A DNA stretch of 64,000 nucleotides, taken from positions 62,001 through 126,000 of IMG/VR virus record IMGVR_UViG_3300013116_000108. One strand, 5' to 3'. The stretch is from a virus. The translations under genes and the position numbers were made by a program. This document shows positions 22,355-58,300 of the stretch, one piece after another (position 1 is the first letter of the stretch; every line of letters begins with the position of its first letter). The notes beneath the pieces are model-generated. The model saw only the letters and a program-made list of their open reading frames with translations, ran no database searches and was not told the origin of the DNA.

Positions 22355-22364
22355 GACGTATTAC

Positions 22365-36133: not shown

Positions 36134-37222
36134 TTATTCGTTATCAAATTGATCCTCGGGAATTTCTTCTTCCGCACTACTTATATTATCATCTTTTGTA
36201 TTTTTTGCTCCGGAAATGATATCGTTCATTACAACCTGTAATCGTTCTCCGGTCCACTGCTTACGAAATTCTTTAATTTCTTCTCCAGTACTAGATGTAT
36301 ATTTGAGTTTATTGCCGTCTTTAACAACTACACCATTCTTTTCAAACATGTCAAGTAATCCACTATAAGGATCCATTCCTCTATCATAAGGAATTTTAAC
36401 TTGTACACCTTCAAAAGGTTTAGCATATCTTGTTTTCATAACTTTACAACCTGCTCTAATACCTCTTACATCACTAATTTTATTGCCTGCTTCATCTTCT
36501 TTTAGTTTCAATTTCTTCATTGCTACTACAATAGAACTAGCATAGATAAATCCTTGTCCTCCTGATATCTTATCATCTGGGTCAAACATATCTTGTGAAG
36601 CATAAGTGTGATTTGTACATACCATACCTACGTTATAAGCACCAATCATATTAACAGTATTACGAACAAGAGCCGTAAGTGCTTTAGGTTTTCTACCCAT
36701 ATCACCTTTCATATCGCCCTTATCAAACTGATCTACATCTGTTGGTGTTAATAACATACCTAATGAATCAATTACAAACATTACTTTTGTATCTGCCCTT
36801 TCTTCAGGCTCCATGGATTTGTAATCTTTCATAAATGTTGAAATAGTTTTTGCTACATCGTCAATCATGCTCATTGATAACTTTAAAAGTTTTTCAGGTG
36901 AAGTATCTACACCCAAAGCATGAAGCCATGTTTCATCTAAAGCATTCTCAGAGTCAATTAGTACTACAAAAATACCTTGCTCTTGAGCGTGTTTTACAAT
37001 ATTACCAGCCGCAAAATAACTCTTACCTGCTCCTGACTCTCCAGCGAACACGGTTACTTTGCCTAGTGGTACACCTTTATTAAAGTCTCCACTAATTAAA
37101 TAATTTAAACAGTAATTACCTGTTGAGACCCAATCTGTTGGATCGTGAAATCCAATTGACAATCCGTCAATTGATTTTGTTATATCTTTTCTAAACTTAC
37201 TTACGTCAAATGGTTTTGCCAT
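36134..37222 (-). CDS. uvsX: UvsX recombinase (RecA-like)
   Basis: A 362-aa RecA/UvsX recombinase. GESGAGKS at 61-68 is Walker A, VVLIDSENALDETWLHALG follows as in RecA/UvsX, VMFVIDSLGMLL is Walker B, and ISGGQGFIYASS the L2-type region. It catalyses strand exchange and drives recombination-dependent replication together with gp32 and UvsY. The acidic C-terminus (SSAEEEIPEDQFDNE) is typical. An AAGGAAGG ribosome site precedes the ATG. A terminator separates it from gp32. Confidence 0.95.
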   Translation of the reverse strand: MAKPFDVSKFRKDITKSIDGLSIGFHDPTDWVSTGNYCLNYLISGDFNKGVPLGKVTVFAGESGAGKSYFAAGNIVKHAQEQGIFVVLIDSENALDETWLHALGVDTSPEKLLKLSMSMIDDVAKTISTFMKDYKSMEPEERADTKVMFVIDSLGMLLTPTDVDQFDKGDMKGDMGRKPKALTALVRNTVNMIGAYNVGMVCTNHTYASQDMFDPDDKISGGQGFIYASSIVVAMKKLKLKEDEAGNKISDVRGIRAGCKVMKTRYAKPFEGVQVKIPYDRGMDPYSGLLDMFEKNGVVVKDGNKLKYTSSTGEEIKEFRKQWTGERLQVVMNDIISGAKNTKDDNISSAEEEIPEDQFDNE

Positions 37223-37287: not shown

Positions 37288-38295
37288 TTACTTCTGTTGA
37301 CGATCTCTAATCATTGCTAGAATATCATCTGCCTTTTTAGCAGAAGTTGTTTCAACAGGAGCCTCAGCCTTTGCTACTGGAGCCGGTGCTGGAGTACTAA
37401 CTTCTTCTGTTGTAGTTTCAGCAACTGGCTGTGTTGAAACAGCCGGAGCGGGAGACGGTGTTGCCGTAGTAGAAGTAGTTGTTTGTGTACTGCCTTGAGG
37501 AGCACTAACACCAGCCGGACGATAATAAGCACCAAATTTCTCGGTATCGTAAGGCTTGCCATCAACTGATTCCTCAAACATTTGTTTGATGATGTTAAGT
37601 TCAGTTTCTGACGGTTTCTTAGGTAAGAAGTCATTCAATGTAAACAACCCATGTGTGTCAATTGCTGTTTGTTCTTCAGCACTTAATGGAGTTTCTTTAC
37701 GAGCCCATTTAGATGTTGAATAATCAGCATAGCCACCTTTTGTGGTTTTTGTTACACGAAAATCTAGTCCAGCAGTTGAATCTGTTGGTAATTCGTCCAT
37801 TTCTGGATCCATTAAACTTGCTTTAATAATATTAAAGAGTTGTGGCCCCATAATAAAACGTCTGATTGGATTTTCTGGAGTTGAATCTTCAGTTAGAGGA
37901 TTTTCTCTAACAAATCCTTGGAAAACGTACGAACGTTTCTTCCAGTACTTACGACCCATGTCCTCTAGTGAGCTGTCTTTAAACCAAGGACGAACCTCAG
38001 TCAAGATTGGACATGAACCAACTGGTTCCCACATTTCCATACACGGAACTTGTACCGTACAAGGTTTGCTATTAACGTCGCCTTTAATACCTTGGAAAGG
38101 TAAACGAATCATTTGACGTTCTGCCCAGAAAAATGTATTACTAGAATCTCCATCAGGGAGAAACCTTAATGTAGTACTTTCGTTTTCTTGGATGTTCCAG
38201 TGAGGGAAGATAGCATTATCTCCTCCTGTGCTACTGCCTGATTGGCGTGTTTCTTGAGCTTGTAGCCTAGCTCGTATTTCCGCAAGTGATGCCAT
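37288..38295 (-). CDS. 32: Single-stranded DNA-binding protein gp32
   Basis: A 335-aa gp32 homologue. The N-terminus (MASLAEIRARLQAQ) is the cooperativity domain, followed by the OB-fold core with Trp/Phe/Arg residues (FFWAERQMIRLPF, RKYWKKRSYVFQGF) and Cys/His residues that suggest a Zn site (CMEMWEPVGSCP). A Pro/Ala/Thr linker (about 270-320) leads to a basic final segment (ILAMIRDRQQK); the acidic T4-type tail is replaced by Glu/Thr/Pro repeats. gp32 coats ssDNA. AGGAGG ribosome site; long structured leader. Confidence 0.9.
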   Translation of the reverse strand: MASLAEIRARLQAQETRQSGSSTGGDNAIFPHWNIQENESTTLRFLPDGDSSNTFFWAERQMIRLPFQGIKGDVNSKPCTVQVPCMEMWEPVGSCPILTEVRPWFKDSSLEDMGRKYWKKRSYVFQGFVRENPLTEDSTPENPIRRFIMGPQLFNIIKASLMDPEMDELPTDSTAGLDFRVTKTTKGGYADYSTSKWARKETPLSAEEQTAIDTHGLFTLNDFLPKKPSETELNIIKQMFEESVDGKPYDTEKFGAYYRPAGVSAPQGSTQTTTSTTATPSPAPAVSTQPVAETTTEEVSTPAPAPVAKAEAPVETTSAKKADDILAMIRDRQQK

Positions 38296-38473: not shown

Positions 38474-39067
38474 TTAAAGTTTTTTCCATTCTGAGTATAT
38501 TCTATCACTTTGGGCGTCCCATTTACACTCAAGTACTTCACAACCATATTTTTTAGCCCATTCATAATTAAGTTCAAATGTCCAAGGAAAAAACTGTATT
38601 TCTTCAACACCTTTCCAAGGATGATCTCCTATTCCTGGATTTTGTCGCCAATATAATATACCGCCCGGTTTTACTAGATCAACTGCTTTTTGAACTTGTG
38701 GTTCAACATCTTCTGCTGTGCCAAAATTCAAACTACCTAAAACAAATGCTATATCCCATTGTTTCCCATTTGCTTCAAATTCTTCAATTCCTACTACTTC
38801 GTCTGCTTTATCATTAGCAGGGTCAAAGCCATAAAGTCGGTCACCTAACTTTTCTTTAAATGAATTAAAACCACAACCAATATCAATTACTGTATCGTTA
38901 GGTCCTACTTTGTCTAATAATGCCCAGCCACTGTATTCATAGTGCTTATAATCTGGTTTCCAGTTACTACCAAAATATTTGTTTACTGTATTTTTGTCCA
39001 CTTGGTTTCCCTCCTTGTCTCGTTTCCATTTATGTTTAAAATAATGAACTACTGTTTTATTAACCAA
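38474..39067 (-). CDS. Class I SAM methyltransferase
   Basis: A 197-aa methyltransferase: DTVIDIGCGFNSFKEKLG (motif I), LYGFDPAND (motif II), WDIAFVLGSLNFGTAEDV (motif IV) and GGILYWRQNPG. The protein at 42919 shares the layout, including LGSLNFGT/LGSINFGT and the N/RxNPG segment, so they are paralogues bracketing the transport cassette. The substrate is unknown; it could act with the amidinotransferase, whose gene it overlaps by 8 nt (guanidinoacetate methylation would be one idea). Confidence 0.75.
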   Translation of the reverse strand: MVNKTVVHYFKHKWKRDKEGNQVDKNTVNKYFGSNWKPDYKHYEYSGWALLDKVGPNDTVIDIGCGFNSFKEKLGDRLYGFDPANDKADEVVGIEEFEANGKQWDIAFVLGSLNFGTAEDVEPQVQKAVDLVKPGGILYWRQNPGIGDHPWKGVEEIQFFPWTFELNYEWAKKYGCEVLECKWDAQSDRIYSEWKKL

Positions 39068-40112
39068 TGTAATCCTCCAATTTTCCTTCTCTATATAAGT
39101 CTTGTGTTATACAATGTATTCCCCCGTCCCAAAAATACCTATGCCTAAAGTTAAATATTATAGGCTCTACTTTATGCTTTTTAAAGTGGTCAAACACTTC
39201 TTTGTTATAGTTGTTACATATAATTGTATTTTGATCAATAGATAACATATTAACATCAAAAACTGTTTCTTCTACATAGCCTACCCAATCCTTTAACCAC
39301 GTGTTGACAAATTCTATTAATTGATCGTTATGCTCTTCTCCTTTTAACCACCAGCGTCCTCCAACTTTCCATTTCATCTGTAAGAACGGATCAACTTTAG
39401 ACCACGATTGGTCTGGCAAATATAATACGTCCCATCCAGGAAATTGTGTTTTGTAGTCTTGTATATCTTTTAACGACACAATACATCCGGGCTTAACTAC
39501 ACAAAAACAACCATCGGAATGATATCCCCTATGTGATCTGTGTACTCTAAATCCTTCTTTGTTCCAGTTTTCAATTAACTCTTTTTCTAAATCAGGTGGA
39601 GCATTTTCGGCCCACCTTTCATGCGAGTCCCAAAATAAATCTTTACCAACTCTACAAATTTGTGCTGAACTTATAAATGGTGTATAACCTTCCCACGGTG
39701 TATCAAGTGTTTGCTCGGTTATGTATATGTCTTTTTTATCAACCTGATTAACAATGTCAATCATACCACCCTTGTTTAAGAACTCGTTTCTTTCACCTAC
39801 ATATAACTTTTCGCCAACAACACAAAAATGATCTCTTGGGGTCATTGGTGGGCGCCATACATCATTTAGTGATTTATATTTGCCGTCACCTTCAATGTTT
39901 AAAAAACTTCTATATGTTTTTACACCACAAGATTCTAGTATGTCAACTAATTTTAAAAAATCTTCTTCGGTTTCATCAGCAATACGTTTAAGGGGATCTA
40001 AAATTTTATTATTCTTAGGAAATAAATCTTCAAACCATTCTGCTTTAAATCCTGATCCGACCCAGCAATGCTTTAAAGGATCAAATGTAGAATATCCTTT
40101 AATTGGAATCAT
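39060..40112 (-). CDS. Amidinotransferase (glycine/arginine amidinotransferase-like)
   Basis: A 350-aa guanidino-modifying-superfamily protein. WRPPMTPRDHFCVVGEKLYVGE (residues 86-107) matches the RDPF...GN strand pair, HSDGCFCVVKPG at 198-209 the catalytic His region, FDVNMLSID the following core strand, and GGIHCITQDLYREG at 330-343 has the catalytic Cys334 in the position of the GGSLHC motif. Such enzymes move an amidino group from arginine to an amine (glycine, inosamine) or hydrolyse guanidines. Acidic residues for the triad are plausible but not certain. It is a rare phage cargo gene. Confidence 0.75.
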   Translation of the reverse strand: MIPIKGYSTFDPLKHCWVGSGFKAEWFEDLFPKNNKILDPLKRIADETEEDFLKLVDILESCGVKTYRSFLNIEGDGKYKSLNDVWRPPMTPRDHFCVVGEKLYVGERNEFLNKGGMIDIVNQVDKKDIYITEQTLDTPWEGYTPFISSAQICRVGKDLFWDSHERWAENAPPDLEKELIENWNKEGFRVHRSHRGYHSDGCFCVVKPGCIVSLKDIQDYKTQFPGWDVLYLPDQSWSKVDPFLQMKWKVGGRWWLKGEEHNDQLIEFVNTWLKDWVGYVEETVFDVNMLSIDQNTIICNNYNKEVFDHFKKHKVEPIIFNFRHRYFWDGGIHCITQDLYREGKLEDYIG

Positions 40113-40707
40113 AGACTGCTATCCAAACATCTTTTTGAAATATAAAATCAGCATCAATGTTAAACTCGTTTCTAAGCCATTCACGACCTGGCTTTCGTAA
40201 TGTAAGATTATGTTTATAACAAAAATCTAATATTGCTTTATTTTGTTCTGTTATTTGATGATTCATAGTTGTATTATCTCTGTACCATTCATAACTAGGA
40301 TAACTAATATCCCAACCTCCTGCTTCATGCCACCAGTTGTAACATTCGTCGTCTGGCCTATAACACATTACAATTTTGCTATCAGGAAACGTTTCTTTTA
40401 TATTGTTTAGATAATAAGCAAAGTTATGACTTAGTATTAACTTAATATCGTCATCTTTACCTAAGTAACTTTGTGCTATTTCTTTTTGCCATAGGTTAAA
40501 CGACCCAAACTCCTTATCTAACCATTGTCCGTTAAGCATTCCAGGACCGTAGTAGTTTCCTATGTGTCCACTATACTTGTGATGTGTGTATGTTTTCTCA
40601 GGTACTAAATCTGTGTTGTCTACGTTAGTGCCGTGGTCTCTAATATGTTGACTTACACCACTCCAACGACTGCCAGGTGCTCCTGTAAAGAAAATCCAAT
40701 TTTTCAT
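40099..40707 (-). CDS. Sulfotransferase-like P-loop protein
   Basis: A 202-aa protein. FFTGAPGSRWSGV resembles the phosphosulfate-binding P-loop of sulfotransferases, and KIVMCYRPDDECYNWWHEAG corresponds to the second (3'-phosphate binding) motif with Arg/Ser position. No Walker B is visible. It lies in an operon with the amidinotransferase and transport genes and overlaps its neighbours by a few bases. A sulfated product is an inference. Confidence 0.55.
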   Translation of the reverse strand: MKNWIFFTGAPGSRWSGVSQHIRDHGTNVDNTDLVPEKTYTHHKYSGHIGNYYGPGMLNGQWLDKEFGSFNLWQKEIAQSYLGKDDDIKLILSHNFAYYLNNIKETFPDSKIVMCYRPDDECYNWWHEAGGWDISYPSYEWYRDNTTMNHQITEQNKAILDFCYKHNLTLRKPGREWLRNEFNIDADFIFQKDVWIAVYDSN

Positions 40708-41057
40708 GTGTATACACTTCCTATTATAAAGTAATCAACAACAAATGTCAACTCAGCACCTAAAAATACTGCTATCCAATAGTTGCCTATCCAATTCCAT
40801 AACTGCTTGATAACCCACCAAGCCATTAATACTCTTATTGAGTATAACACATCTGCCCATATGATGTCAAGCCATAGAAACGAATCTGCTTGAAAATAAT
40901 TGTAGAATACAAAGTTATCGTATATAAAACTTAATTGGGCCATAAAGAATACTGCCCAATAGTAAGTTAAATATTTGTTTAAAAATTTAACTAGTGGTCC
41001 TGAAACCACTAGTCGATATATGACATAGGTAAAGTTAGCGATTGCTAACTCAATCAT
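40704..41057 (-). CDS. Small polytopic membrane protein, possible TctB-like subunit
   Basis: A 117-aa membrane protein with three or four hydrophobic spans rich in Trp/Tyr/Phe (YYWAVFFMAQLSFIYDNFVFY; YWIAVFLGAELTFVVDYF). TctB, the small subunit of tripartite tricarboxylate transporters, also has four spans and about 150 aa, and TctC and TctA are in the same cassette. The sequence resemblance is not convincing, so this is a positional guess. The codons near the start contain a strong hairpin (40990-41013). Confidence 0.4.
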   Translation of the reverse strand: MIELAIANFTYVIYRLVVSGPLVKFLNKYLTYYWAVFFMAQLSFIYDNFVFYNYFQADSFLWLDIIWADVLYSIRVLMAWWVIKQLWNWIGNYWIAVFLGAELTFVVDYFIIGSVYT

Positions 41058-41722
41058 TAGCTCACCTTAGTTTCGTCGTGTGGTAAACTACCATCGTTTA
41101 GTAAGCCATTTCGCTTACGTTTATCAAGCCAACTATGTTCAACACTATGTACATACTTGGCATTTGGATCTTTGTTTAGAATATAATGAAGTCTTTCATC
41201 TGTAGCATCTACAGGAATATTAAGCAAAGTGTCTAACGACTTTAAATATTGATGTCTAAACAAATACAGCAATTCTACACTTAAGAAAACGTGAGAATAT
41301 TCTATAATATCTTCAATCTTATTAAGAAAGTTGTGATAACTTTCTACACCTCTTTTTCTTAACTGTCCTTGTGCCATAATATTTTGATCTCTACCAATAA
41401 TGCCAACTTGAAGGTTTCCTACTTTGTTCAATTCACTTAATACTTCTTTGTAGTTAGGATAAACTGTTTGCTTTTGCCCGTCTATAATATCTACATATGG
41501 TCCACTTACACTAAGAACCCAGTTATTACTAGTAGACCAATCATAGTCTTTAATAGTTTCAGGCTTAGACCAAATATCTTTAAACGGTGCCGCATCGTGA
41601 TTTATCCAATACTCTCTTAACAGGTCATCCCAACCTGATACATCATCATGTAATGATAATGCTTTGGAATAAAGGTGATTACCGGACCCTTGAGGCCCGG
41701 TAATTACTAAAATGTTTGTCAT
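41057..41722 (-). CDS. P-loop nucleotide-binding protein of unknown function
   Basis: A 221-aa protein with VITGPQGSGNHL at its N-terminus, a P-loop variant in which the usual GKS/T is replaced by Gly-Asn, as in some sulfotransferase-like or kinase-like proteins. IIGRDQNIMAQGQLRKRG may be a second substrate loop. Genes on both sides overlap it by one base. A GC-rich hairpin lies over the P-loop codons. Function unknown; possibly a partner of the 202-aa sulfotransferase-like protein. Confidence 0.5.
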   Translation of the reverse strand: MTNILVITGPQGSGNHLYSKALSLHDDVSGWDDLLREYWINHDAAPFKDIWSKPETIKDYDWSTSNNWVLSVSGPYVDIIDGQKQTVYPNYKEVLSELNKVGNLQVGIIGRDQNIMAQGQLRKRGVESYHNFLNKIEDIIEYSHVFLSVELLYLFRHQYLKSLDTLLNIPVDATDERLHYILNKDPNAKYVHSVEHSWLDKRKRNGLLNDGSLPHDETKVS

Positions 41723-42774
41723 TATTTCACTAACTTGTCTTTGTATACTGCTGGAATATTCAAAGCATCATTTGAAAACTTGATTAAATCTTTCAGTGAA
41801 TCTTCTGTAATGAACGACATCAACGTATCTCTTTGATTGTTGCCTGCTTCACCGATAATCCAATCATACTTTCCAACTTTCTTTTGGATAGCCTTGATTG
41901 CTTGAGGATCTTTAGACATCTCTAACAAAGCCGCCTGTAATTTCTCAGCATTAGGATTGCCTTTGTTTACCCAGAACGCTTTTTGTAAAGAGTCACGGAA
42001 TGATTTTACAAGTTTGTAAGCATCATACATTGGACCTGATGGAGCAACACCCCATTTTTCTTCAAATAAGATTTCCATTTGCTTTCCTGGATAGTTAGGA
42101 TCGTCAGCGTGTGATCCGTCTGCTTGTAGAATACCATGATGGAACCAAACTTCTGCTTCTTCATTAGGAGCAATATGCTTTTTAAATGCCGCAGGATTTT
42201 CTCTGTCAACAGTTAGTTCACCACGTTTAAATGCTAAACGTCTAGCACCACCGTTACCAAATCCTGGAACCCAGTTAACGTGTGATTTGAAACAAGCAGA
42301 ATATTCATCAATTGATTTGCCTGGGCCACATAATAACAATGCCATTCCCATAGCGTCAGGTACACGACCTGATTTTGAAGCAAAGATAATGTTTTCCATA
42401 TCAGCATCTAATCTCTTACCAACAATAATGTTTAAGTTCATCATGCCAATTGATTCCCAATCAGCATAGTTATAGTCAACATCTTCTTGTAAGAATGATA
42501 CACCATTACCACCATGCGATACCATAACAATAGTATCATCAAATCTTAGTTCGTTTTGAAAGGCGTTAACTGCAGGAATATCTCTAGCGCCTGGAAAGTT
42601 TCTAAGTTTTAGAGTGTCATTTGGTAAGAATCTTTGTAGTTCTTTGAGAACAATTTCTGTCCATACTGTTGTTCCTGAGCCCGGCTTTTGCGGTACAACA
42701 AACGTAAACGTTTCAGCAAATGCTGATCCTGTAATGCCTAGTGTTAGTACTAGTGCCATTAATAATTTTTTCAT
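41722..42774 (-). CDS. tctC: TctC-family periplasmic solute-binding protein
   Basis: A 350-aa secreted receptor of the tripartite tricarboxylate (TctC/BUG) family. A clear signal peptide, MKKLLMALVLTLGITGSAFA, precedes the mature ETFTFVVPQKPGSGT, where a PxKPGSGT loop matches the BUG signature that binds carboxylates. SHGGNGVSF and VPGFGNGGARR are further pocket loops. It would bind a carboxylated solute in the host periplasm and deliver it to TctA/TctB. It is expressed from an AAAGGAAA ribosome site after a 144-nt gap. Full length, with no truncation. Confidence 0.85.
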   Translation of the reverse strand: MKKLLMALVLTLGITGSAFAETFTFVVPQKPGSGTTVWTEIVLKELQRFLPNDTLKLRNFPGARDIPAVNAFQNELRFDDTIVMVSHGGNGVSFLQEDVDYNYADWESIGMMNLNIIVGKRLDADMENIIFASKSGRVPDAMGMALLLCGPGKSIDEYSACFKSHVNWVPGFGNGGARRLAFKRGELTVDRENPAAFKKHIAPNEEAEVWFHHGILQADGSHADDPNYPGKQMEILFEEKWGVAPSGPMYDAYKLVKSFRDSLQKAFWVNKGNPNAEKLQAALLEMSKDPQAIKAIQKKVGKYDWIIGEAGNNQRDTLMSFITEDSLKDLIKFSNDALNIPAVYKDKLVK

Positions 42775-42918
42775 TTCTATTTTCCTTTTAATAATCAGAA
42801 TTATACAAGCGAAATGCTTGGATAATTATTTTGTTTTTGATTGTTTGCTACACTAAGAACCCTGACACTCGTCTAAGTTTGTGTATTGTGGAGTATAATA
42901 CAGCTCTGTATTACATTT
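42775..42918 (-). promoter_or_regulatory. Leader region before tctC
   Basis: This gap contains no open frame. TATAAT on the minus strand near 42803 without a good -35 box and a perfect TAATACAG-AG-CTGTATTA palindrome (42896-42913) just after the methyltransferase stop are visible. A weak AAGC-ATTTC-GCTT hairpin overlaps the upstream side of the TATAAT. Confidence 0.4.
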
Positions 42919-43611
42919 TTATTTATCGTTTTTTCTTAGCACAAAATAATACCTGACTCCTCTGTCATTTACTTCTTGTTCGAGGGTTAAGATACTACAA
43001 TTTAAAGCACTAGCAGAATTAATAATAAACTCATTAGTCCAATTAAAAAATTCTATCCATTGTGCTTCAGGAGCCTTGTGCTGTTCTCCTGGATTAACTC
43101 TAAAATATAATAAACCGCTAGTCTTTGTTAAGTTTACAGCATTCTTTAATTCAGCATATATTTTATCTACAGTACCAAAATTAATGCTACCTAAACAAAT
43201 AGTAATATCATATTTTTCAGTTGGTTTGTATTCTAATATACTACTGTTAATATCTGCTCTTTCATTGTACGGATCTACACCAGTTAGGTTGTTGATCTTT
43301 CCTTTGAATTCATTATAGCCACAGCCTAAGTCTAAAACTCGTAAAGGCTTTAAGTTATTAACTTCATCTATAATACTTAATCCACTATACTTGTACTTTT
43401 TTGTAATAGGTTGCCAAACAGTAGCAAAGTATTTTTTAAGTACATGATAGTGGATAAGTTCTGTTAAATCTTTAACATTGGTAAAATTAATATCTTTAAT
43501 GTCAACACCAAAAGTTCCATTGATTGCCTGCTGTAAAAGTTTATTGTCATCTAATAGTTGTGGACTAGATTTAAACATAGTACACAGCCTGTCTAAAATT
43601 TTAGTGTTCAT
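42919..43611 (-). CDS. Class I SAM methyltransferase, paralogue of 38474-39067
   Basis: A 230-aa protein with LRVLDLGCGYNEFKGK (motif I), LTGVDPYNERAD (motif II), YDITICLGSINFGTVDKI (motif IV) and LLYFRVNPGEQH, matching the methyltransferase at 38474. The N-terminal 50 residues are an extra helical part. It lies between the H1-like gene and tctC. Substrate unknown. Confidence 0.75.
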   Translation of the reverse strand: MNTKILDRLCTMFKSSPQLLDDNKLLQQAINGTFGVDIKDINFTNVKDLTELIHYHVLKKYFATVWQPITKKYKYSGLSIIDEVNNLKPLRVLDLGCGYNEFKGKINNLTGVDPYNERADINSSILEYKPTEKYDITICLGSINFGTVDKIYAELKNAVNLTKTSGLLYFRVNPGEQHKAPEAQWIEFFNWTNEFIINSASALNCSILTLEQEVNDRGVRYYFVLRKNDK

Positions 43612-43618
43612 TAATTAC

Positions 43619-43942
43619 CTATAATGCTTTATGTAGTTGCTTAACTAGTTTATCTTTTGATAAACGTCTATCTAATTCAATACCTTTTTCTCTACCCATT
43701 TCTTCTAACTGTTTTTTAGTTAGTTTAGCAAGAGCTTTTTTTGTAGGTTTAGCAACAGTTTTTTTTGTTGCTGTAGCCTTAGGTGTTGCTTTAGGTTTTG
43801 CTGTAGCCTTAGGTGTTGCTTTTGCTTTAGGCTCTACTTTATATGCTACTGTTGGTGCCTTTTTTGGTTTGGCCGTTTCTTTTGCTTTTTCTTTACCAAA
43901 GAAAATTTCAGTTAGAGTAGGCCATCCTTTGAAAATACTCAT
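43619..43942 (-). CDS. Histone-H1-like Lys/Ala/Pro repeat protein with SAP/HeH-like end
   Basis: A 107-aa protein. Residues about 25-70 are repeats of AKATPKATAKPK/ATPKATATKK, as in histone H1 C-termini and bacterial H1-like proteins. The C-terminal 35 residues (LTKKQLEEMGREKGIELD) form a helix-extended-helix pattern like SAP/HeH/Rho-N DNA-binding domains. It should bind DNA non-specifically, perhaps altering host nucleoid or phage DNA compaction, or regulating transcription. The repeats are prone to recombination and length change. Confidence 0.65.
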   Translation of the reverse strand: MSIFKGWPTLTEIFFGKEKAKETAKPKKAPTVAYKVEPKAKATPKATAKPKATPKATATKKTVAKPTKKALAKLTKKQLEEMGREKGIELDRRLSKDKLVKQLHKAL

Positions 43943-43952
43943 TGTATTTCTC

Positions 43953-44660
43953 CTATATGTCTACCACATTATTAAAACTACCAAACTGTACTAGATCTCT
44001 TGTGAGGTCTGTAGTTAGTCCAGTAATTTGTAACATTGGCCTATTGTCCCAACCCATGTTACAAGTGGCGTGTGGTATATCCCGCCACTCCCATGTTATA
44101 CATTGTCCTTTACTCCATTGATGCCAGTTGCTATTACCTAATGAAAACACTTGTCCGTGTTTCCAATCATCTAACATAATAACAAACCTTCTCATAAGCT
44201 CAGGGTTCTTATCTGCTTCTATTTCTACAAAACTATTTCCGCGTTCTTTACGACCCGCAAAATTGTCTATATGCCAATTTAACATTTGTCCTGTTATTTG
44301 GTTATGAAACTTAATTGTTGCTTCTTCCATGCCAAAGTAATTAGCAATTTTTTTAAAAACTTCTATGTCTTCTGCCTTTGTTCTTTTGAATACTTCCATT
44401 TGCGGATTTGCTCCTGCTCTTTCTAAGTCGTATTCTTCTTGATTAGCACTATATATTCTATCTTTGCCATCAACTTTATTTCGTGTAGCCCATGTACTAG
44501 TTACTACTCTTTCTAAGCACTCGTTAACAGCATCTTCCCAATCACCATTAAACGTACAAACTTCTTGATAGTCTTTACTTACTACTTCTGGCCTAAAGTG
44601 CCATTTACTTTGTTTCTTTGTAAAATCCCAACGGCTTTTACCCCAGTCTTCGTTTGTCAT
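43953..44660 (-). CDS. 2-oxoglutarate/Fe(II) oxygenase
   Basis: A 235-aa dioxygenase: NWHIDNF (His130, Asp132) and DIPHATC (His197) are the metal triad, and RPMLQITG has the Arg that binds 2-oxoglutarate. RRFVIMLDDWKHG is a typical core strand pair. Marine T4-like phages often carry such enzymes for hydroxylating proteins, nucleobases or small molecules; the substrate here is unknown. It is unlike the hydroxylase at 21512. Its stop lies 11 nt before the H1-like gene. Confidence 0.8.
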   Translation of the reverse strand: MTNEDWGKSRWDFTKKQSKWHFRPEVVSKDYQEVCTFNGDWEDAVNECLERVVTSTWATRNKVDGKDRIYSANQEEYDLERAGANPQMEVFKRTKAEDIEVFKKIANYFGMEEATIKFHNQITGQMLNWHIDNFAGRKERGNSFVEIEADKNPELMRRFVIMLDDWKHGQVFSLGNSNWHQWSKGQCITWEWRDIPHATCNMGWDNRPMLQITGLTTDLTRDLVQFGSFNNVVDI

Positions 44661-44672
44661 TTGCTATCCAAT

Positions 44673-44807
44673 CTATTTTATACTTCCGTTTAATACACGT
44701 TTACTATTAGGGTGCCTTTTTGCTGTAAACGTGGCGTGTGACATATTCTTTTTAATTCTTGGGACACCTTTTTTTACTATAATGCCCGGTACTGCTCTTT
44801 TTCCCAT
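44673..44807 (-). CDS. Basic microprotein, 44 aa, coupled to tctA
   Basis: A short frame starting at ATG 44807, overlapping the tctA stop by one base (TAATG), with GGAG 8 nt upstream, and ending at TAG 44673. The protein is very basic (MGKRAVPGIIVKKG, RIKKN, KRHPNSKRV) with no hydrophobic span. It accounts for most of the 146-nt space between tctA and the oxygenase. Function unknown; ribosome or nucleic-acid contact is possible from its composition alone. Confidence 0.45.
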   Translation of the reverse strand: MGKRAVPGIIVKKGVPRIKKNMSHATFTAKRHPNSKRVLNGSIK

Positions 44808-46246
44808 TATGAATACTCCAATTTATTTTTTCTAGAAACACCGTACACAAACAAGCCTACAATCAGTACACACAATACTAAAAAGATAGGTCTTTGTAAT
44901 AATTTATCAAAAGTATAAATGTGTATTAAGTTTAATGTCAGCGATTCAAATTTAGTAGCAAGTATAAATGCCATAAGCATACCTGGTCTACTAAATTTAT
45001 ACTTTTTACAAACAACACCTAGCACCGAACATATTGCTAATATGGCATAGTCTTCCCAACCGCCTGTATATTGTACACAGGCCCAAATTATAAATGCTAC
45101 AATTAAAGGGAAATAATATATGTAAGGCACATAACAGATCTTAGCAATGTATCTATTAAATGTTATACAGATAATACCAACTAATACTGTTGCCCACATA
45201 AAGCCAAATGTTAGACTATCAAAAAACTTTGTGTCGTAAGCAATTTCTTGAGCACCTAGTTCAAACCCTAAGTACATAAACAGTCCCATAAGAACTGCGG
45301 CAAAACTTGCCCCTGGTATACCAAACAATACTGTTGGAATCATACTAGTTGCTTTTTGTGAGTTGTTAGCACCTTCTGGTCCTACTACTCCTCTAATATT
45401 ACCTTTGCCAAATTCTTCGTTAGGATGAGTTGCTACTGTTGAACCATATGCCATCCAGTCTGCCATAGCACCGCCAATGCCTGGTAAGAATCCTATAAAG
45501 GCTCCAATGGCTCCGCCACGTAGGGCGTCCCATTTCATTTTCCATACTACTTTAATACCTTCCCAAGTTTGCTTCATTTGAGTATTTTCTTTCATATGAG
45601 CTACTTGTTGGCCTTTCTTCCAGCCATCTAATATTTCTGGAAAAGCAAATAGTCCAGCAACAAAAGGCATAAGTTGTACACCGTCGCCTAAGTATTCCCA
45701 ACCGCCTGTGTATCTATCAAAGTTTGTTAATGGATCTGTACCTATAAGTCCTATTCCTAGTCCTACAAGAATTGCTATAATACTTCTAAACCAAAATCTG
45801 TTACTAACAAATCCTACACAGGCAAGAGCCATTACCATGAATGCCCATAACTCTGGAATGCCAAAGTACATAATAAGTTGTACATACCAAGGCAATAAAG
45901 CAAAGGTTAGTGTACCCCATATAAGTCCGTTAAGTGTTGAAGTTGTAATTGCGGCCGTTAAAGCATAAGTGGCTTTACCTTGTTTTGCTAACGGGTATCC
46001 GTCAACCATAGTTGCCGCGGCTGAATTGGCGCCTGGTATTCCTAATAATATTCCCGAGTATGTGTCGCCTGTTGTACTGGCGGCTACTACTGCCATACAA
46101 AATATTACGCCTAAGTAAGGATCAAATCCAAAGTAACTGATAAATCCAAATAAGGCTACTAATCCTGTTGTTGCTCCAGCACTAGGTACTAGACCTACAA
46201 TCAAACCATAAAATGTACCTGCTAATAAAGTGTAAATTTCTTCCAT
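44807..46246 (-). CDS. tctA: TctA-family tricarboxylate transporter permease
   Basis: A 479-aa polytopic inner-membrane protein of the TctA family, close to the usual 500 aa. Conserved loops are present: LVPSAGATTGL near the N-terminus, GIPGANSAAATMVDGYPLAKQ-like segment near residues 70-90 (written here only in part), and GFLPGIGGAMADWMAYG in the second half, the duplicated signature of the family. TctA forms the channel and uses the ion gradient to import di/tricarboxylates or similar acids delivered by TctC. It is the first gene of the cassette after the 742-aa structural gene, AAGGA ribosome site. It appears intact. Confidence 0.9.
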   Translation of the reverse strand: MEEIYTLLAGTFYGLIVGLVPSAGATTGLVALFGFISYFGFDPYLGVIFCMAVVAASTTGDTYSGILLGIPGANSAAATMVDGYPLAKQGKATYALTAAITTSTLNGLIWGTLTFALLPWYVQLIMYFGIPELWAFMVMALACVGFVSNRFWFRSIIAILVGLGIGLIGTDPLTNFDRYTGGWEYLGDGVQLMPFVAGLFAFPEILDGWKKGQQVAHMKENTQMKQTWEGIKVVWKMKWDALRGGAIGAFIGFLPGIGGAMADWMAYGSTVATHPNEEFGKGNIRGVVGPEGANNSQKATSMIPTVLFGIPGASFAAVLMGLFMYLGFELGAQEIAYDTKFFDSLTFGFMWATVLVGIICITFNRYIAKICYVPYIYYFPLIVAFIIWACVQYTGGWEDYAILAICSVLGVVCKKYKFSRPGMLMAFILATKFESLTLNLIHIYTFDKLLQRPIFLVLCVLIVGLFVYGVSRKNKLEYS

Positions 46247-46310: not shown

Positions 46311-48539
46311 TTACTGAGTTGTTTTTCTTTTGTGAATAGATCTAGGAGTAGTTTGGTGTTCGTTTTTCTTAGGTCTTAATGCTTTGTTAGATGACATAAC
46401 ACCTGCTAACTTTTTCATATGATTGATAGACTCATCGGCGTCATCTTTTTCATCTTCAATCTCATCTTCAAGTTCTTTAGCAAGAGCGTCTGCCATTCCT
46501 TTTTTAAGAACTTCTTCTGGGTTTTTTGATTCATTAATATCTACACCAAAAGGAGCATCGCCAAAGAAATCTTCTAGTCTGCTTTGAACAATGTGTCTAA
46601 CGTCAAGTACGTCACCGCCATCTTCTGCACTATCTAGATCATCTAATAACTCATCATCAAATACAAAACCAGTTACCATGTTAGTTGTTTCTTCGCCTGG
46701 TGGACGAGGTTTAGACATAAACTCTTTGTATCTCGCTACAGCGTCTTCATGTTCGCCTTCTGGTTGACCATCATATTTCATTAGTCCGCCAATCATAGTA
46801 CCTTCAGCAACTTTTTTTGCTTCAATTTCTTCAACCGCCGCTTCGGCTTCAATTGGTAATTCTTTTGAATCATCTACTGCTTCATTTTTCATAGCCATCA
46901 TTTGATCCATATGTGTTTGGTAAGGTTGTCCATATTCTTTCATACCTGCTAACCAATTCCATATAGTAGGCCTAGCATCAGCATTAGGGTCAAGTTCACT
47001 TAATTGGTCATATAACTCATCATCACCAAATATTTCACCAATTTCATCTGTTGCGGCTTGACCTTCTTCGCCTGCTATAACAGGTGTTGACATAATTTCT
47101 TTAAACCTTGCTACATGTTCATCGCTTGATGGTAAATGCCACGTGCCTTCTTTTACAACTGAATCTGTCCATTTTTTAAATTCTGCTGATTCTTCTTGTG
47201 GCTTCATTTTATATTTAGGATCAAAGTCTTGTACTTCTACATCACCTTTAAGCCACTTACTAGCAATAGCAATCGCCATTTCTTTATCATGCTTATTATT
47301 AAAACTGTCATCAATATTAAAAATTGCTCTTGCTAAATCATCGTCTTTTGTACGAACTGAAATTGTTGCTAAGATTCTTCTAACTAAAGCATGTAATGGG
47401 TTTTCTGTATGATCTAAGCCTTGTGAATCGTTTGGCTTTTTAAACTTGTTTGCTTTAACAAAGGCAAGTTGCTTTTTAATTAAAGCATCTTCTTCTTCGT
47501 TTGGTGTTACAACAATTTTCTTTTTACCTTGAATAATATCATGAATTGGGCCCATGTCTTCGTGTACTTTTCTTCTTGCTTTAAGTACTGTAGGTAACAA
47601 ACTTTCTAGTTCTGTTTGATCAACTGTTCTAACTAATTGACTCTTTAGTTCGTTAATGTCTGATTCGTCATATACTGATTCTGTAGGCTGAAAGTTTTCA
47701 GCATAAGTCTTATAACCTTTTGGTTTTGAAAGAGTGTTAACTGTTGCTTTCAAACCTTGGTAACGTTTCTTAGCATCAGAAATAATATCAGCAGAATCTT
47801 CGTTAACAAACCCGTCAGCACGATTTAATTTTTTAACAAAGTTTCTTAATTCATACATTTCTTTAACACATTCAATAATGTGAGAACCTAGTTCGTCATG
47901 TGGATTGCCTCCTGCATGAACATGTCTTGCCATTGCTCTAGCACCTGGTAAATATTTGAAAGGAAATTTAAATCTTTCCTTGGCACTATTCTCAATAAAG
48001 ACTGATTGTATTTGTCTACTTCTAGATCCCATTTTATCTTCATCTACTGCTGATCTGTGTTTTATAATTAACCTTGCTGACTCAACTGTTTGGTAACTTG
48101 TTTTAGTTGAACCATATAATTTGCTGACTGATTCCATTGTAATTTCATCCGTTGTATATTGAGAACTATTTTTAGTAATAGCCTCATAATCTCGTTTGTC
48201 TAACTGATTTTTGCCTATGTTTCTTACATCAAAATTCATCATGTTTTTCTTAGCAAACATTCTCATTTCTTTTAAGAAATCAAACCAACTACGTTGTATT
48301 GAATCTGGTAAGTCACCGCTCAAACTTTCAGCAAAATAAATTGTAAAGTTAGCAGGATCAATAATACTAATTGTTACAGGTCCGTACTTTTCTCCTTCAA
48401 CAACATAGTTAAAATCAAACAATCTTGCTTGTTCTGACTCTAATACAGCACCTGCACCTTCATCTGCTATGTTTACTTCACCAAATTTACTGGCTAAATT
48501 TTGATATAATGTGTCGGCTATTTTTTTAATCAGTTCCAT
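46311..48539 (-). CDS. Large acidic virion-associated protein with internal repeat
   Basis: A 742-aa protein with a family-specific N-terminal domain (about 1-270; beta then helical, FKFPFKYLPGARAMARHVHAGG) and a long acidic C-terminal part. Two related segments occur: ARFKEIMSTPVIAGEE...FGDDELYDQL (about 485-540) and ARYKEFMSKPRPPGEE...FDDELLDDLD (about 610-665), showing an internal duplication. The end is basic (SIHKRKTTQ). It lies just downstream of gp17, so a structural or packaging-related role is likely. I do not recognise a named family. Confidence 0.6.
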   Translation of the reverse strand: MELIKKIADTLYQNLASKFGEVNIADEGAGAVLESEQARLFDFNYVVEGEKYGPVTISIIDPANFTIYFAESLSGDLPDSIQRSWFDFLKEMRMFAKKNMMNFDVRNIGKNQLDKRDYEAITKNSSQYTTDEITMESVSKLYGSTKTSYQTVESARLIIKHRSAVDEDKMGSRSRQIQSVFIENSAKERFKFPFKYLPGARAMARHVHAGGNPHDELGSHIIECVKEMYELRNFVKKLNRADGFVNEDSADIISDAKKRYQGLKATVNTLSKPKGYKTYAENFQPTESVYDESDINELKSQLVRTVDQTELESLLPTVLKARRKVHEDMGPIHDIIQGKKKIVVTPNEEEDALIKKQLAFVKANKFKKPNDSQGLDHTENPLHALVRRILATISVRTKDDDLARAIFNIDDSFNNKHDKEMAIAIASKWLKGDVEVQDFDPKYKMKPQEESAEFKKWTDSVVKEGTWHLPSSDEHVARFKEIMSTPVIAGEEGQAATDEIGEIFGDDELYDQLSELDPNADARPTIWNWLAGMKEYGQPYQTHMDQMMAMKNEAVDDSKELPIEAEAAVEEIEAKKVAEGTMIGGLMKYDGQPEGEHEDAVARYKEFMSKPRPPGEETTNMVTGFVFDDELLDDLDSAEDGGDVLDVRHIVQSRLEDFFGDAPFGVDINESKNPEEVLKKGMADALAKELEDEIEDEKDDADESINHMKKLAGVMSSNKALRPKKNEHQTTPRSIHKRKTTQ

Positions 48540-48554
48540 ATTATTATTTATCCT

Positions 48555-50132
48555 TTAAATGATTACAAACGGCATAGGCTCTATATAGTCGTCTTCAGTT
48601 GATCTCATGTCTTGTTGAATTTTTGGGTCGTATGTACCTAAAAATGTTGCTATTCTTAATGCTAGTACCGTTGCCATAACTAAATCATCATGCTCACCCG
48701 GCTTACCTTGATAACTATTGCCACTTGCTACAAAAGTTTTTAATTGTGTTATAAGAGGTTTACTATACACTACCAGTTTTTGATTTTCTACTAGTTCTTT
48801 TAACTTGGCACAAGAAGCCAATTTACTTTTGTGTGTTGTATTAAATCCTTTTCTAAAGCGCCTAACGTGTCCACTCCTAGCAGGTTCACTCATAAAATAT
48901 CCATGAATTGCTTCTTCCCCTACTTCTGCTATAGAAACAAGTGCGGCTTCACCTAATGTGTTGTTCTCTACACTATAATAAATGTTATTATTGTCATTTG
49001 TAATACCATAAATGTATTTTGTAATTTGCTTTAATATTGTAATTTGTTCTTGTATTGTAGTTTTATTATGTTGCCATTCAGCACATTGTTTCATACCAGG
49101 CAATTCAAAAACTTGTATGGCTGAATAGTCGCCTCCTGTTCCTAAACTAGGATCTAAACCTACAACATACGTTTTTCCTTTTTTAGGTTTATGATACCAA
49201 CGAACTTGACCTTGTTTATATAAAGGGTCATTGCCTTCTAAACTTGCTAATATAATAGGGTTAATTAATGTTTCATCAAATATGATTGGTTCACATTCGT
49301 GTTCACGTTTGAATCGTTCAATGCCAATCCTTCCGCGTTCTTCGTCTGCCCAATCTTTATCTCTATCAGGATGTTCACTCCATAGTGCCTTAAAGGCATG
49401 AAAGCCATTAACACCTACACCGCCTTCGTTTTCATTACCAAAGTTGTCTAATGTTTTATTTGCTTCTGTCCATAATAACCAAAACTGATCTTCGTCTGAG
49501 TTAGGTGTTGAAGTAATAATCGCTTTACCACCTGTTGCTAGTGTAGGTGATATCGATGTCCAAAACTCTGTAGCAATGTTATTCCTCACAAAAGCAAACT
49601 CATCACAGTATAGCATTGTAATGGACATACCTCTTCCTGTGTTTTCTGTAGTTGCTTGTGATACAATTCTACTACCATTCTCAAATTCTATCGATCCTCT
49701 GTTGTAATTTGTAACACCTGCTCTAATAAAATCAGGACAAAGTTCATATCCGTATCTAACACGTTGCATAATTTCTTGAGCGCCGGCGTGTTTATGTGCC
49801 GCAACTAGTATTACACTATCAGGAACAAACATAGCATACCAAAGCAAGTATCCAGCCGCTGTGGTAGTTTTACCCATTTGTCTGCTTACTAAGTTAATAC
49901 TAAATCTGTTTTTATGGTAACTGTCTAGTAATGTTTCTTGGAAATCATAAGGATCGTATTTAATTTTACCTTGTGTAGGATGTTGTATAAAGAAATAATG
50001 TTCAAGAAAGTACGTTGGCCCAGATACTGGATCAGCACACTTCATAAATTCTTCAAGTTGCTCTTCAGTAAACTGCTGGCCTTTATTGGCTTTTTTGATT
50101 AATACACCATCTAGTGATTTATTAGTAGACAT
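48555..50132 (-). CDS. 17: Terminase large subunit gp17
   Basis: A 525-aa packaging ATPase/nuclease. SRQMGKTT at 83-90 is Walker A, MLYCDEFAFV Walker B, STPNSDEDQFW motif III-like, and the C-terminal RNase-H-type nuclease has VVGLDPSLGTGGDYS, YSVENNTLGE and HDDLVMATVLAL with the three acidic ligands. It cuts concatemers and drives DNA into the prohead with gp16. It is shorter than T4 gp17 (610 aa). A TAAATAC box ends 4 nt before the ATG, with no ribosome site, so the mRNA may be leaderless. Confidence 0.95.
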   Translation of the reverse strand: MSTNKSLDGVLIKKANKGQQFTEEQLEEFMKCADPVSGPTYFLEHYFFIQHPTQGKIKYDPYDFQETLLDSYHKNRFSINLVSRQMGKTTTAAGYLLWYAMFVPDSVILVAAHKHAGAQEIMQRVRYGYELCPDFIRAGVTNYNRGSIEFENGSRIVSQATTENTGRGMSITMLYCDEFAFVRNNIATEFWTSISPTLATGGKAIITSTPNSDEDQFWLLWTEANKTLDNFGNENEGGVGVNGFHAFKALWSEHPDRDKDWADEERGRIGIERFKREHECEPIIFDETLINPIILASLEGNDPLYKQGQVRWYHKPKKGKTYVVGLDPSLGTGGDYSAIQVFELPGMKQCAEWQHNKTTIQEQITILKQITKYIYGITNDNNNIYYSVENNTLGEAALVSIAEVGEEAIHGYFMSEPARSGHVRRFRKGFNTTHKSKLASCAKLKELVENQKLVVYSKPLITQLKTFVASGNSYQGKPGEHDDLVMATVLALRIATFLGTYDPKIQQDMRSTEDDYIEPMPFVII

Positions 50133-53527: not shown

Positions 53528-54619
53528 CTAATCTACATGAGGATTTCCGGCCATATCTTTTACAGTACCAACATTATTACCACTTGGCACTGATTTATTT
53601 GATACACCGTTATCTGTATGTGGGTTTGGTCTAGTTGAGCCCGGGAAAGCATGTTGTTGATTGCTTTTTTTAGACTTAGCAACTTCATTATTTGTATATG
53701 TTTTTTTGCTGTTTACATCGCTTTTATATTCTTTTCTCTCTGTTTCAGGACCGCTATATATTCCAGCATCTTGTTCCATCATATACTGCTCATATCTTTT
53801 TTTCTTATGGGCATCAACTATGCTCTGTGTATGTTTTTCCCATTCACTATTATTAACAGAATCGTTTGGCGAATAATCTTTATCGTAATGTAAATCACCA
53901 AAGCCTTTAGGACCAAACTCTAAAGCATTTGGCTGGCCGCCACTCATAGTACCTGTAGCATATTTTACTGTTTCGAATTGAATTTGCATTGTGTTTTCTA
54001 ATACATCACTTTGAGAGTGATCATGATTATCGTGACTAAAGTTTGTAATTATAGGATTAATTAATGTGTATTCTGAAAACTGTTTTTTTCCGTAGATACT
54101 ATACAACTGAATGCTCTCAAAAAATGGTTGGTCCTCAGGCTCTGCTATGCCAAAATTAAAATCTTGATCTTCACTTGTATAAGTATTTCGGGTAGTATAT
54201 ACACTTGATGTAGGTGGACCTGCTTTTTGATCGGAATAATACCAATCTAAATAAGCATACCATAGCGTTTTAGAAATATCTGCCATGTCGTCATGTAAAC
54301 GTATTTGAACTGGATTATAGTTTATTTTTGTTTGTACTGCTCTCCAACGATTATACTCATTCATTAATTGAGTATCAAACGTGTATGATGGCAAGTCTAC
54401 TGACTTAACCAACATACTTGCTTCTCGTTTAATAGAGTCTGGAAGTGCTTTTGAAACTTCTGGTGTAAAATTAAACACTACAAAAAATAGAAATTTTTGT
54501 TTTGGTGCTAATCTATAATCGCCATCTCTAAAGGTTCTAGCGGCGTGTTGATAATCACGCAATAGTTTCTTACTCGACCATGCTTTTGGATCTACTATCT
54601 GACCTTTAAAATCAGCCAT
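53528..54619 (-). CDS. Tail-tube-like protein (gp54/second tube protein candidate)
   Basis: A 363-aa protein. Residues 45-210 have the tail-tube fold pattern: FLFFVVFNFTPE, MLVKSVDLPSYTFDTQ, MNEYNRWRAVQTK and VQIRLHDDMADI, as in gp19 relatives. The C-terminal 130 residues are polar and Lys/Asn/Pro-rich, without fold pattern. Marine T4-like phages often have a gp54-like tube initiator or a longer tube homologue; position after gp19 suits either. Assignment to gp54 is a guess. Confidence 0.55.
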   Translation of the reverse strand: MADFKGQIVDPKAWSSKKLLRDYQHAARTFRDGDYRLAPKQKFLFFVVFNFTPEVSKALPDSIKREASMLVKSVDLPSYTFDTQLMNEYNRWRAVQTKINYNPVQIRLHDDMADISKTLWYAYLDWYYSDQKAGPPTSSVYTTRNTYTSEDQDFNFGIAEPEDQPFFESIQLYSIYGKKQFSEYTLINPIITNFSHDNHDHSQSDVLENTMQIQFETVKYATGTMSGGQPNALEFGPKGFGDLHYDKDYSPNDSVNNSEWEKHTQSIVDAHKKKRYEQYMMEQDAGIYSGPETERKEYKSDVNSKKTYTNNEVAKSKKSNQQHAFPGSTRPNPHTDNGVSNKSVPSGNNVGTVKDMAGNPHVD

Positions 54620-55350: not shown

Positions 55351-58300
55351 TTACCCGGATATAGAACCTGTGTTTTGGATTCTAACAGGTATGTAAATAA
55401 ACTCTACTGATTTAACAGGTTCAACAGCAACGTCTAGATATAATTCATTTCTGTCTATTCTTGCTGATGTGTTATTAGTTTCATCACATACTACCAAGTA
55501 ATCATATAAACCTCTTTTAGAAACTAAGTCGTTCATTAGTGATTCTACAACACCTTTGATTTCGTCCCTAGTTAACTTGTCATTTGGTTCAAATACAAAT
55601 GGTTTTGTAATTTCGCCTAGTCTTTCTCTGATATATGCTACAAGTCTTGCTACGTTGATTCTATCTAACGCTGAAGCAGAACCATGTCTAGTTTTGTTAC
55701 CAAAGTTAAGTATACCAACACCTGGGAAGAATGCGATTGGATTAATCTTATTCTCATATAAAGTATCTCTTAAAGATTCTTTAATACCAACTGTTTGGAA
55801 TTCACCAGTAGCACTATCAATGTGTCCTAACGCTGTAGCATTATCTACGCCACCTCGTCTTGTGCCTGCTGGAGCAAACCATGGAAAACTAGCATCATCT
55901 GAACGTAACATTGTTCTCAATGCCATGTGTGTTGGAGGAACAACAATTCCGTTACCATCTAAGTCTGTAGTTCTACCCGATGGATAAAACACACCTAAAT
56001 ATGTATCTGCTGTTACTAGTCCATTTTCATTGTTATCAATAGCAAGTTTTGTGTTATTAGCCCAATTTTGTATATCAGTACTATTTGGTGCTAGTCTCAT
56101 TGGAGCATCTCCAAGAACAAAGCCTGTATTTCGTCTTTCATTATTAAGTGCTACTAAGTTAGCCATTAGTTCTGGATATCCAGGAGCAACTAATAAGTTA
56201 AAGTTACGTTGTTCTTCACGTATCTCATCTGATGAAGTTACCGCTGACTTCATTGCGGAAACAATAGTATTACGCTGAGCATGTCTACCTACAAACGGAG
56301 CACCGTCATTTTGTATTCCTGATACAGTTACCCAAGCATTTGTTTCTGTTGGTAAAGTTTTACCTGGGAAGTCAGTAGCATTAAAGTACGCTTTCTTGTA
56401 TTCTTTAACGTTATTTGAGCTACGTCTTAAGTTAAATGCTAACATACCTCTTGGATACAATGCGGCACTTGGAGCATCAATATCTGTGTAGTCACTTGTT
56501 AACAATGTTTTAATTGGTGTCATAGTTGATGTTGTTACATCATCTGTAGCACTATCATGGAACCTAAAGTCAGCAAATAAAATACCATCTTCTGACGTTT
56601 GGTCTGTAGTATCAATTGCTACCCATTTATCTTCTGAAGCAACTGATTCCCATCTACTAATTTTAAAAGTATCTGGGTCAGAGGTGTCAATCCAAAGGTC
56701 GCCATATACAAGTGCTGTATTATCAGACTGTACTAGTGGCTCTGTTGCTGACACAATTGGTCCATCTGGTGAAGTGTTAGATAAGTTAAATCCTCTAGCA
56801 TCTGTAGTAACACCTTGGTATCCTTTCCAAGTAACACCATCATGTATCATAATATCCGCATCACTAACTGCGGCGTTAAACCATTTAGTTCCGTCTGCCG
56901 GATCTGCTGTTGGTTGTGTAGTACTTGCTGAGTAAGTGTAAGTTTGCCAATTAGATACAATTATATCTGAATTGTTGCCTGCTCTTGCTGTAGTTAAAGA
57001 AGCAGTAATACCAGCATCAACAACTGGAGTTCCAGTAGCATCTTTAAGAACAATAACACCACCTAAGTCGTGTGTTAATGTAATAGCATTTGTTGTAGTA
57101 TCTCTCGAAACTGACAAGTTAGCAATATTTGCCGCTGTTACACCACTTACAAAATCTTCGGCAGTTTTTGCTCCAGATCCTGGTATAGTAACTGTTACCG
57201 CTGATGTTAATGTTGCCGTTTTGTCTGACATTTGAATAGTAAATGTTTCACCGCCTGTAAATGCCGGACTTGCTGTACCTGTTACACTAGTAACACCTTT
57301 AGCAATTCTCTTGAAGAATTTATAACTTCCTCTACCATTATCTTCAGCGTCTTGCTTAACGTATATTGTATCAGCCGCTACATTAATTCCGCCACCTGCT
57401 TTATCTAAACCATAGTTTGCTGACTCGTCGTTAGCATATATTGGAGCCGCATTTGCTTCAAATAGTTTAGTATTAGCGTTATAAGTTTTTAGACTAAAGT
57501 CAGCACCTTTATTAGGTGTTGTTGTTTTAATCCAAACAGACCCTGTTGGTCTTGTATAAGTGTCTGCTGTTTTCCATTCCGGAATTGATGTGTGTTCTGC
57601 AAAATCAAATTTTGGAGACCAATATCTTCCAGCAGTTAATCCACAAACTGTGAGGATAGTTCCTGTACCATTTGCTATTAATACTGATCCAGTGTTGCCA
57701 CCGCCTCCGCCATCAGCAGTGGCATTAGCATAAATTTCTAATTTGTTATTAACAACTGCCGCTGAAACGCCTGCTTCGCCGGCACCTGAAATATCAGCCG
57801 CTAGTGATGTTGCTGAAGTACCTGAGGCTGTAACTGTAGTTCCGTTAATAACAATAGTGTGTCCAGCAACAATAGTTGGTGAACTTTCTGTTCCTGTTAC
57901 AGTTGGGTGTGATGTTTGCCAAGCAGGTGAACCTACGTGTACCCAAATATTTCCGCTGTTTTTGTAAAACAATGGATTTTTAGTGTTTGTAGCATCAATG
58001 GCATATTCGCCAATTGAACCATAAGAACTCTTAGGAACTGATGCTGAAATATCATTTGAGTCAGTAATTATTTTTGGTACTACGTTAGCAAACTTTTGTG
58101 TGGACTCGTTCCAAACATGAACTCCAAATAAAGTCTTGCTAATATCAAACCATGCCGTTCCTGCCGCAGGTGCCCCAGAAGGTCTACCTGAAGAAGTAGA
58201 TAGTTGACCTAAATCAACATCTGCCCTTGTTACATACGCTCTATTACTGACACCTAGTACGCTGTAGGCCGCCATAAGTCCGTATTCGTTAACTTCACTA

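Follow-up and report, generated by a model that had tools for sequence, protein, structure and literature searches.

Classical tripartite tricarboxylate transporter (TTT) systems require TctB. Phages as a rule adjust enzymes or contribute an individual binding protein, e.g., PstS. Relative to the classical TctCBA, Bug, MatC, and TphC systems, the phage locus described here has in common the TctC fold and the TctA Pfam family, and it differs in that there is no TctB, TctC lies below Pfam detection, and the first loop of TctA is altered. It also resembles the TctA-TctB-fusion TTT systems of tricarballylate/aconitate operons, in which the nearest kin of both proteins are found and TctC and TctA are likewise adjacent; it departs from them in lacking the C-terminal membrane extension of the fusion-type TctA (~170 aa, TctB-like by position), in its differing TctC cleft loops, in having no catabolic genes, and in its long separate branch. 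A tctA gene has been reported on SUP05 single-cell viral contigs as a "protein domain hit only" with its role stated as unknown, in a study whose putative auxiliary metabolic genes (AMGs) also include a 2OG-FeII oxygenase (PMC4164917), and this gene is listed in a review (PMC6359870). That report, like ours, concerns tctA on a marine viral contig, but without TctC, a cassette, or family analysis (PMC4164917). Beyond this domain match, we found nothing on viral TctA/TctC in the open literature, i.e., outside subscription papers and supplementary tables.

We analyzed a 64,000-base stretch of DNA (the window), comprising bases 62001 to 126000 of the 204,100-base IMG/VR virus record IMGVR_UViG_3300013116_000108. 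Judged from sequence, the system that it encodes is TTT-type by two of three subunits and not a complete classical TTT. We consider it probable that TctA and TctC form a virus-specific two-component TTT-type importer of one carboxylate-type solute, with a ligand differing from that of the cellular relatives. Hundreds of marine viral sequences carry the conserved permease with its periplasmic receptor, which implies that these viruses may alter the range of solutes taken up by an infected bacterium. The features of the locus are listed in Table 1.

Table 1. The TctA/TctC cassette and bounding phage genes (positions in the window)
Feature	Position	Strand	Basis or remark
Tail sheath	55351-58557		Same side of cassette as TerL
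Tail tube	53528-54619		Same side of cassette as TerL
TerL (terminase large subunit)	48555-50132	-	Part of upstream phage boundary
Virion structural protein	46311-48539	-	Part of upstream phage boundary (46311-50132)
TctA-type permease, 479 aa	44807-46246	-	Pfam, 25-member alignment, tree, loop conservation
O, 2OG/Fe(II)-oxygenase-like	43953-44660	-	Invariant H130, D132, H197, R207
Lys/Ala-rich protein, 107 aa	43619-43942	-	Restricted to near relatives
M, class-I SAM-methyltransferase-like	42919-43611	-	Pfam Methyltransf_23 E=4e-4, below cut-off; conserved SAM-binding DxGCG motif
TctC-type periplasmic solute-binding protein, 350 aa	41722-42774	-	Profile, AF2 + Foldseek, homology
Second P-loop protein, 221 aa	41057-41722	-	GPQGSGNH motif; near TctA in 6/54 loci
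Hydrophobic membrane protein, 117 aa	40704-41057	-	No TctB similarity by hhalign
S, P-loop protein, kinase/sulfotransferase-like fold	40099-40707	-	Pfam Sulfotransfer_3 E=0.042
Amidinotransferase, AGAT/StrB1 superfamily, accessory	39060-40112	-	Conserved HxD + catalytic-Cys region
Second methyltransferase, paralogue of M	38474-39067	-	TTG start, start uncertain
gp32-like SSB	37288-38295	-	Downstream phage boundary (36134-38295)
UvsX	36134-37222	-	Downstream phage boundary, with gp32-like SSB

Phage context and distribution of the cassette

The source phage is large, marine, and T4-like. Consistent with the initial annotation, which had assigned the transport genes to a T4-like phage, Gp23 capsid and T4 portal genes are present elsewhere in the 204-kb record, and within the window TctA and TctC sit between phage structural genes (TerL and tail genes) and replication genes (gp32-like SSB and UvsX). 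It had further been proposed that viral genomes be searched for TctA/TctC next to terminase or gp32; several independent contigs (e.g., L003/L064, L005, L008, and L051) do place the cassette between TerL and gp32 and repeat the junctions seen in the window, which excludes an assembly chimera with a host contig. The TerL of the window is closest to those of Pseudomonas PA5oct-type and rhizobial jumbo phages (~52% identity). One module contig (L142) was binned in a Pelagibacter MAG, and a flanking gene of a module contig is closest to HTVC008M; together with the TerL kinship, these observations are only hints as to the host. No T4 late promoter (TATAAATA) was found near the cassette, the motif being below chance frequency across the window, and counts of sigma-70-like sites were near chance.

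Scans of IMG/VR loci returned 59 relatives for the TctA query, 131 for the TctC query, and 447 for the TctC alignment. The window-type TctC occurred in 0 of 50,697 phage-collection records, where TctA matches were at most ~32% identical and lay in bacterial or unannotated short records; the phage-isolate records searched contained no TctC/TctA pair. For linkage we used 128 distinct contigs, 89 of which carry a full-length TctA with room beside it, and 54 loci with wide flanks; as these loci were fetched by similarity to TctA or TctC, the family counts given here are not a census. TctC was present within 6 kb and on the same strand in all 89 usable contigs, i.e., the genes are encoded together as in TTT systems; the two overlap in 66 of them and follow the order A then C in 87. 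The window is among the few loci with a gap between TctA and TctC (2,032 bases).

The genes flanking the module fall into several different sets, and the place of the cassette is not the same in at least three T4-type records; in one of 328 kb it is ~100 kb from TerL. With such varied flanks and positions, the module has either passed between lineages as one block or been inherited through large rearrangement. The window also encodes a DUF6267 protein (7659-8921, minus strand; Pfam E=1e-106). A 404-aa protein directly downstream of the module in the 51%-identity contig group, with relatives across cyanophages and HTVC008M, may belong to the same family, which would suggest that those contigs are T4-like too.

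The TctC and TctA proteins

The 350-aa window protein had been described as a complete TctC with a signal peptide. Searched as a single sequence, it matched nothing in Pfam or PHROG, nothing meaningful in NCBIfam, and no PDB entry at a significant level; its family profile (37 viral members) searched against the PDB returned BugD first (E=0.0027), with MatC and 2dvz weak. The AlphaFold model (pLDDT 88.5, pTM 0.87) was compared with the PDB by Foldseek, and the 16 best matches were TctC, Bug27, BugD, MatC, and TphC/TBP proteins (E 2e-10 to 1e-7), with TM-scores normalized to query length of 0.49-0.54. The window protein is, in addition, 29% identical to plasmid proteins annotated as TTT substrate-binding (E=1e-19), and its N-terminus, MKKLLMALVLTLGITGSAFAET, is signal-peptide-like as judged by eye. 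Profile, predicted fold, and homology together show that it is a divergent TctC, in agreement with the description.

We compared the cleft loops of 37 phage TctCs with those of 13 cellular kin. These loops are invariant or nearly so in the phage proteins, unlike in the kin, with SHGGNG in place of TSSSTQ, GARD in place of GGGS, FHHG in place of FSWG, GT[S/T] in place of G[T/S][D/A], and RENPA in place of YQTSS. The cleft residues typical of Tcu-operon TctCs were not shared by the phage proteins in this comparison. Ligands of TctC-type proteins sit at strand C-ends, and it is to strand C-ends that the differing loops map in the AlphaFold model. The most economical reading would be that the function has been kept and the ligand has changed. 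With a cleft this strictly conserved, a single purified protein would suffice for a direct test of the ligand.

The full-length TctA permease of the initial annotation was recovered as an intact open reading frame that matches Pfam TctA at E=1.1e-97 over model positions 3-421 of 423. It is conserved along its entire length (mean column identity of 71% in an alignment of 25 members). Loss of function in its conserved loops had been named as evidence that would count against the proposal, but it does not apply: the second-half motifs PGxGG, PExxNN, and GIPG are kept, although the first conserved loop is altered, reading mostly P-S/A-A-G rather than P-G-L-G, so that PG is mostly gone. Pairwise dN/dS values were 0.03-0.16 for TctA and 0.03-0.11 for TctC, in the same range as those of phage core genes (0.07 for TerL and 0.10 for gp32). 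Both reading frames are intact and under purifying selection, and the disruption against which the initial annotation had cautioned does not apply; the pair consists of intact, constrained cellular-type genes inside a viral genome, as AMGs do. A basic ORF of 44 codons (44673-44807, minus strand), the ATG of which overlaps the TAA stop of TctA, takes up most of the space between TctA and the oxygenase gene; its shortness kept it out of the list of open reading frames.

Cellular relatives and the question of TctB

Phage TctC and TctA share their nearest cellular kin, with full-length alignments and adjacent TctC/TctA genes. In these kin the TctC-like protein has 350-400 aa, TctA has 650-680 aa with a C-terminal membrane extension, and the operons encode 4-oxalomesaconate tautomerase, a dehydrogenase of the isocitrate/tartrate type, and the tricarballylate-utilization proteins TcuA/TcuB. 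The fully annotated example is the Paracoccus marcusii plasmid pCP157_01, which carries TctC, a 666-aa permease, 4-oxalomesaconate tautomerase, TcuB, and TcuA; an operon of this type is also present in a SAR11 genome (G009, locus L152). The TctC of the tricarballylate-type operon in this SAR11 genome (L150/L152) likewise has no Pfam match, and on sequence grounds the 350-400-aa TctC branch seems to be under-annotated in bacteria too.

In a TctA tree built by a quick method, with long branches flagged by the program, the phage sequences and one bacterium formed a single clade (SH-aLRT 100) within the fusion-type group, on a stem of 2.3 substitutions/site. That bacterium, marine bacterium B5-7 (L141/L212), carries TctA-TctC-S-M on a chromosome-like contig and was the sole non-phage match in a scan of 85,000 species; the second match of the scan was the Pelagibacter-MAG-binned contig mentioned above, which has phage-type flanks. 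The B5-7 locus is like those of the phages in its TctC (55% identity), its S and M families, and its cleft motifs, but it has a bacterial chromosomal context (YcaO/TfuA, DnaJ, and ABC transporter genes) and its S lies on the opposite strand. Among the 109 genomes searched from the taxonomic order of B5-7, no other shares the locus. Support for phage monophyly excluding B5-7 was low (42), and transfer may have gone in either direction.

The window TctA lacks the C-terminal TctB-like extension of its nearest cellular kin, and TctB (PF07331) was absent from the phage record and from ten other long virus records. The initial annotation had placed a small membrane protein in the position of TctB. 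This assignment is unsupported, because hhalign detected no resemblance of the 117-aa protein to TctB or to the fusion C-termini (a weak test, as the fusion C-termini themselves match TctB poorly) and because the protein occurs near TctA in only 4 of the 54 assessable loci. The same protein is found in two unrelated module contigs (L009, 16792-17142; L032, 11237-11590) at 47-56% identity, and there it stands away from its window neighbors.

Linked modification-type genes and the possible cargo

The proposed linkage of TctA/TctC to modification-type genes was confirmed, as the families M, S, and O recur near TctA in 46, 43, and 33 of the 54 loci, respectively; the linkage is not universal and is drawn from gene neighborhood. 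The functional assignments of all three are tentative. The invariant residues of O fit the expected HxD...H...R pattern; it had no Pfam match and only a weak PDB match, to the 2OG enzyme AtsK (E=0.14). S has an invariant G-x-PGS-x-WS loop, and Foldseek matched its model (AF2 pLDDT 92) to the folds of nucleoside kinases and of Stf0-type sulfotransferases, weakly in each case (E 4e-3 to 5e-2). We considered S as a sulfotransferase, and this was not established. The amidinotransferase, just outside the interval of the initial annotation (40704-46246), can be firmly assigned to its superfamily by family profile (StrB1, E=6e-56; AGAT, 1e-45), but it is only accessory to the cassette (12 of 54 loci).

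In the importer that we favor, TctC would be exported, as is known for its family, and would capture a carboxylate-type solute in the periplasm and hand it to TctA, acting as an ion-gradient-driven permease in the inner membrane of the infected host; TctB would be supplied by the host, or the phage clade would work without it. Inward transport, ion-gradient coupling, and the changed ligand are what we infer, with TctC export, ligand capture, and ion-coupled import drawn from family knowledge. Counting against this model are the absent TctB and the loss of PG from most first TctA loops. These same two features would fit a periplasmic sensor, decoy, or superinfection-exclusion device built from TctC and TctA, and signalling roles are known for some TctC homologues. 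Such a device is nevertheless quite improbable given a TctA that is conserved throughout, keeps its second-half loops intact, and is under strong purifying selection, and given that no kinase or regulator was recognized as a recurrent neighbor in the phage loci. Less credible by far is chimeric host DNA or a recently acquired passenger: TctA is otherwise a cellular family and a close copy sits on the chromosome-like contig of B5-7, but the TerL-gp32 placement in independent contigs, the hundreds of viral loci, the coding constraint, and the 2.3 substitutions/site that separate the clade from other cellular TctA refute this explanation as far as sequence allows.

The initial annotation had supposed that carboxylate uptake feeds host carbon metabolism. 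Plain AMGs that import a TCA-type acid (citrate, aconitate, tricarballylate, 2-oxoglutarate, or malate) for this purpose and to supply the 2OG-dependent oxygenase would accord with the TcuA, TcuB, and 4-oxalomesaconate tautomerase of tricarboxylate catabolism in the nearest cellular operons, and with the frequent linkage of a 2OG-oxygenase-like gene. However, the cleft residues fixed in the phage TctC family are consistently unlike those of the tricarboxylate-operon relatives, which argues against plain tricarboxylate uptake, and the phage cassette carries tailoring-type genes only, with no Tcu, tautomerase, or TCA genes. We regard this supposition as unsupported and the explanation as unlikely. 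Somewhat less doubtful, although still tentative, is an extension of the favored importer to a dedicated import-and-tailor pathway of marine phages, in which a TctB-less TTT-type system brings in a new ligand and M, O, and S methylate, hydroxylate, and phosphorylate or sulfate it to make a modified molecule for virus use, e.g., on the surface, the virion, or DNA. That the imported compound might be a substrate or co-substrate of M, O, and the P-loop enzymes, rather than bulk carbon, is the most speculative step and is suggested by gene neighborhood.

Elsewhere in the window, a four-gene island (21512-25514) lies on the plus strand, against the prevailing orientation. The first of the four encodes a 2OG enzyme of the aspartyl/asparaginyl beta-hydroxylase type (E=3e-12); the remaining genes are without a Pfam match. 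A 384-aa protein (3089-4243, minus strand) contains a zeta-toxin/AAA kinase-like domain (E=4e-13) and is, by sequence, probably of the phage polynucleotide-kinase type.
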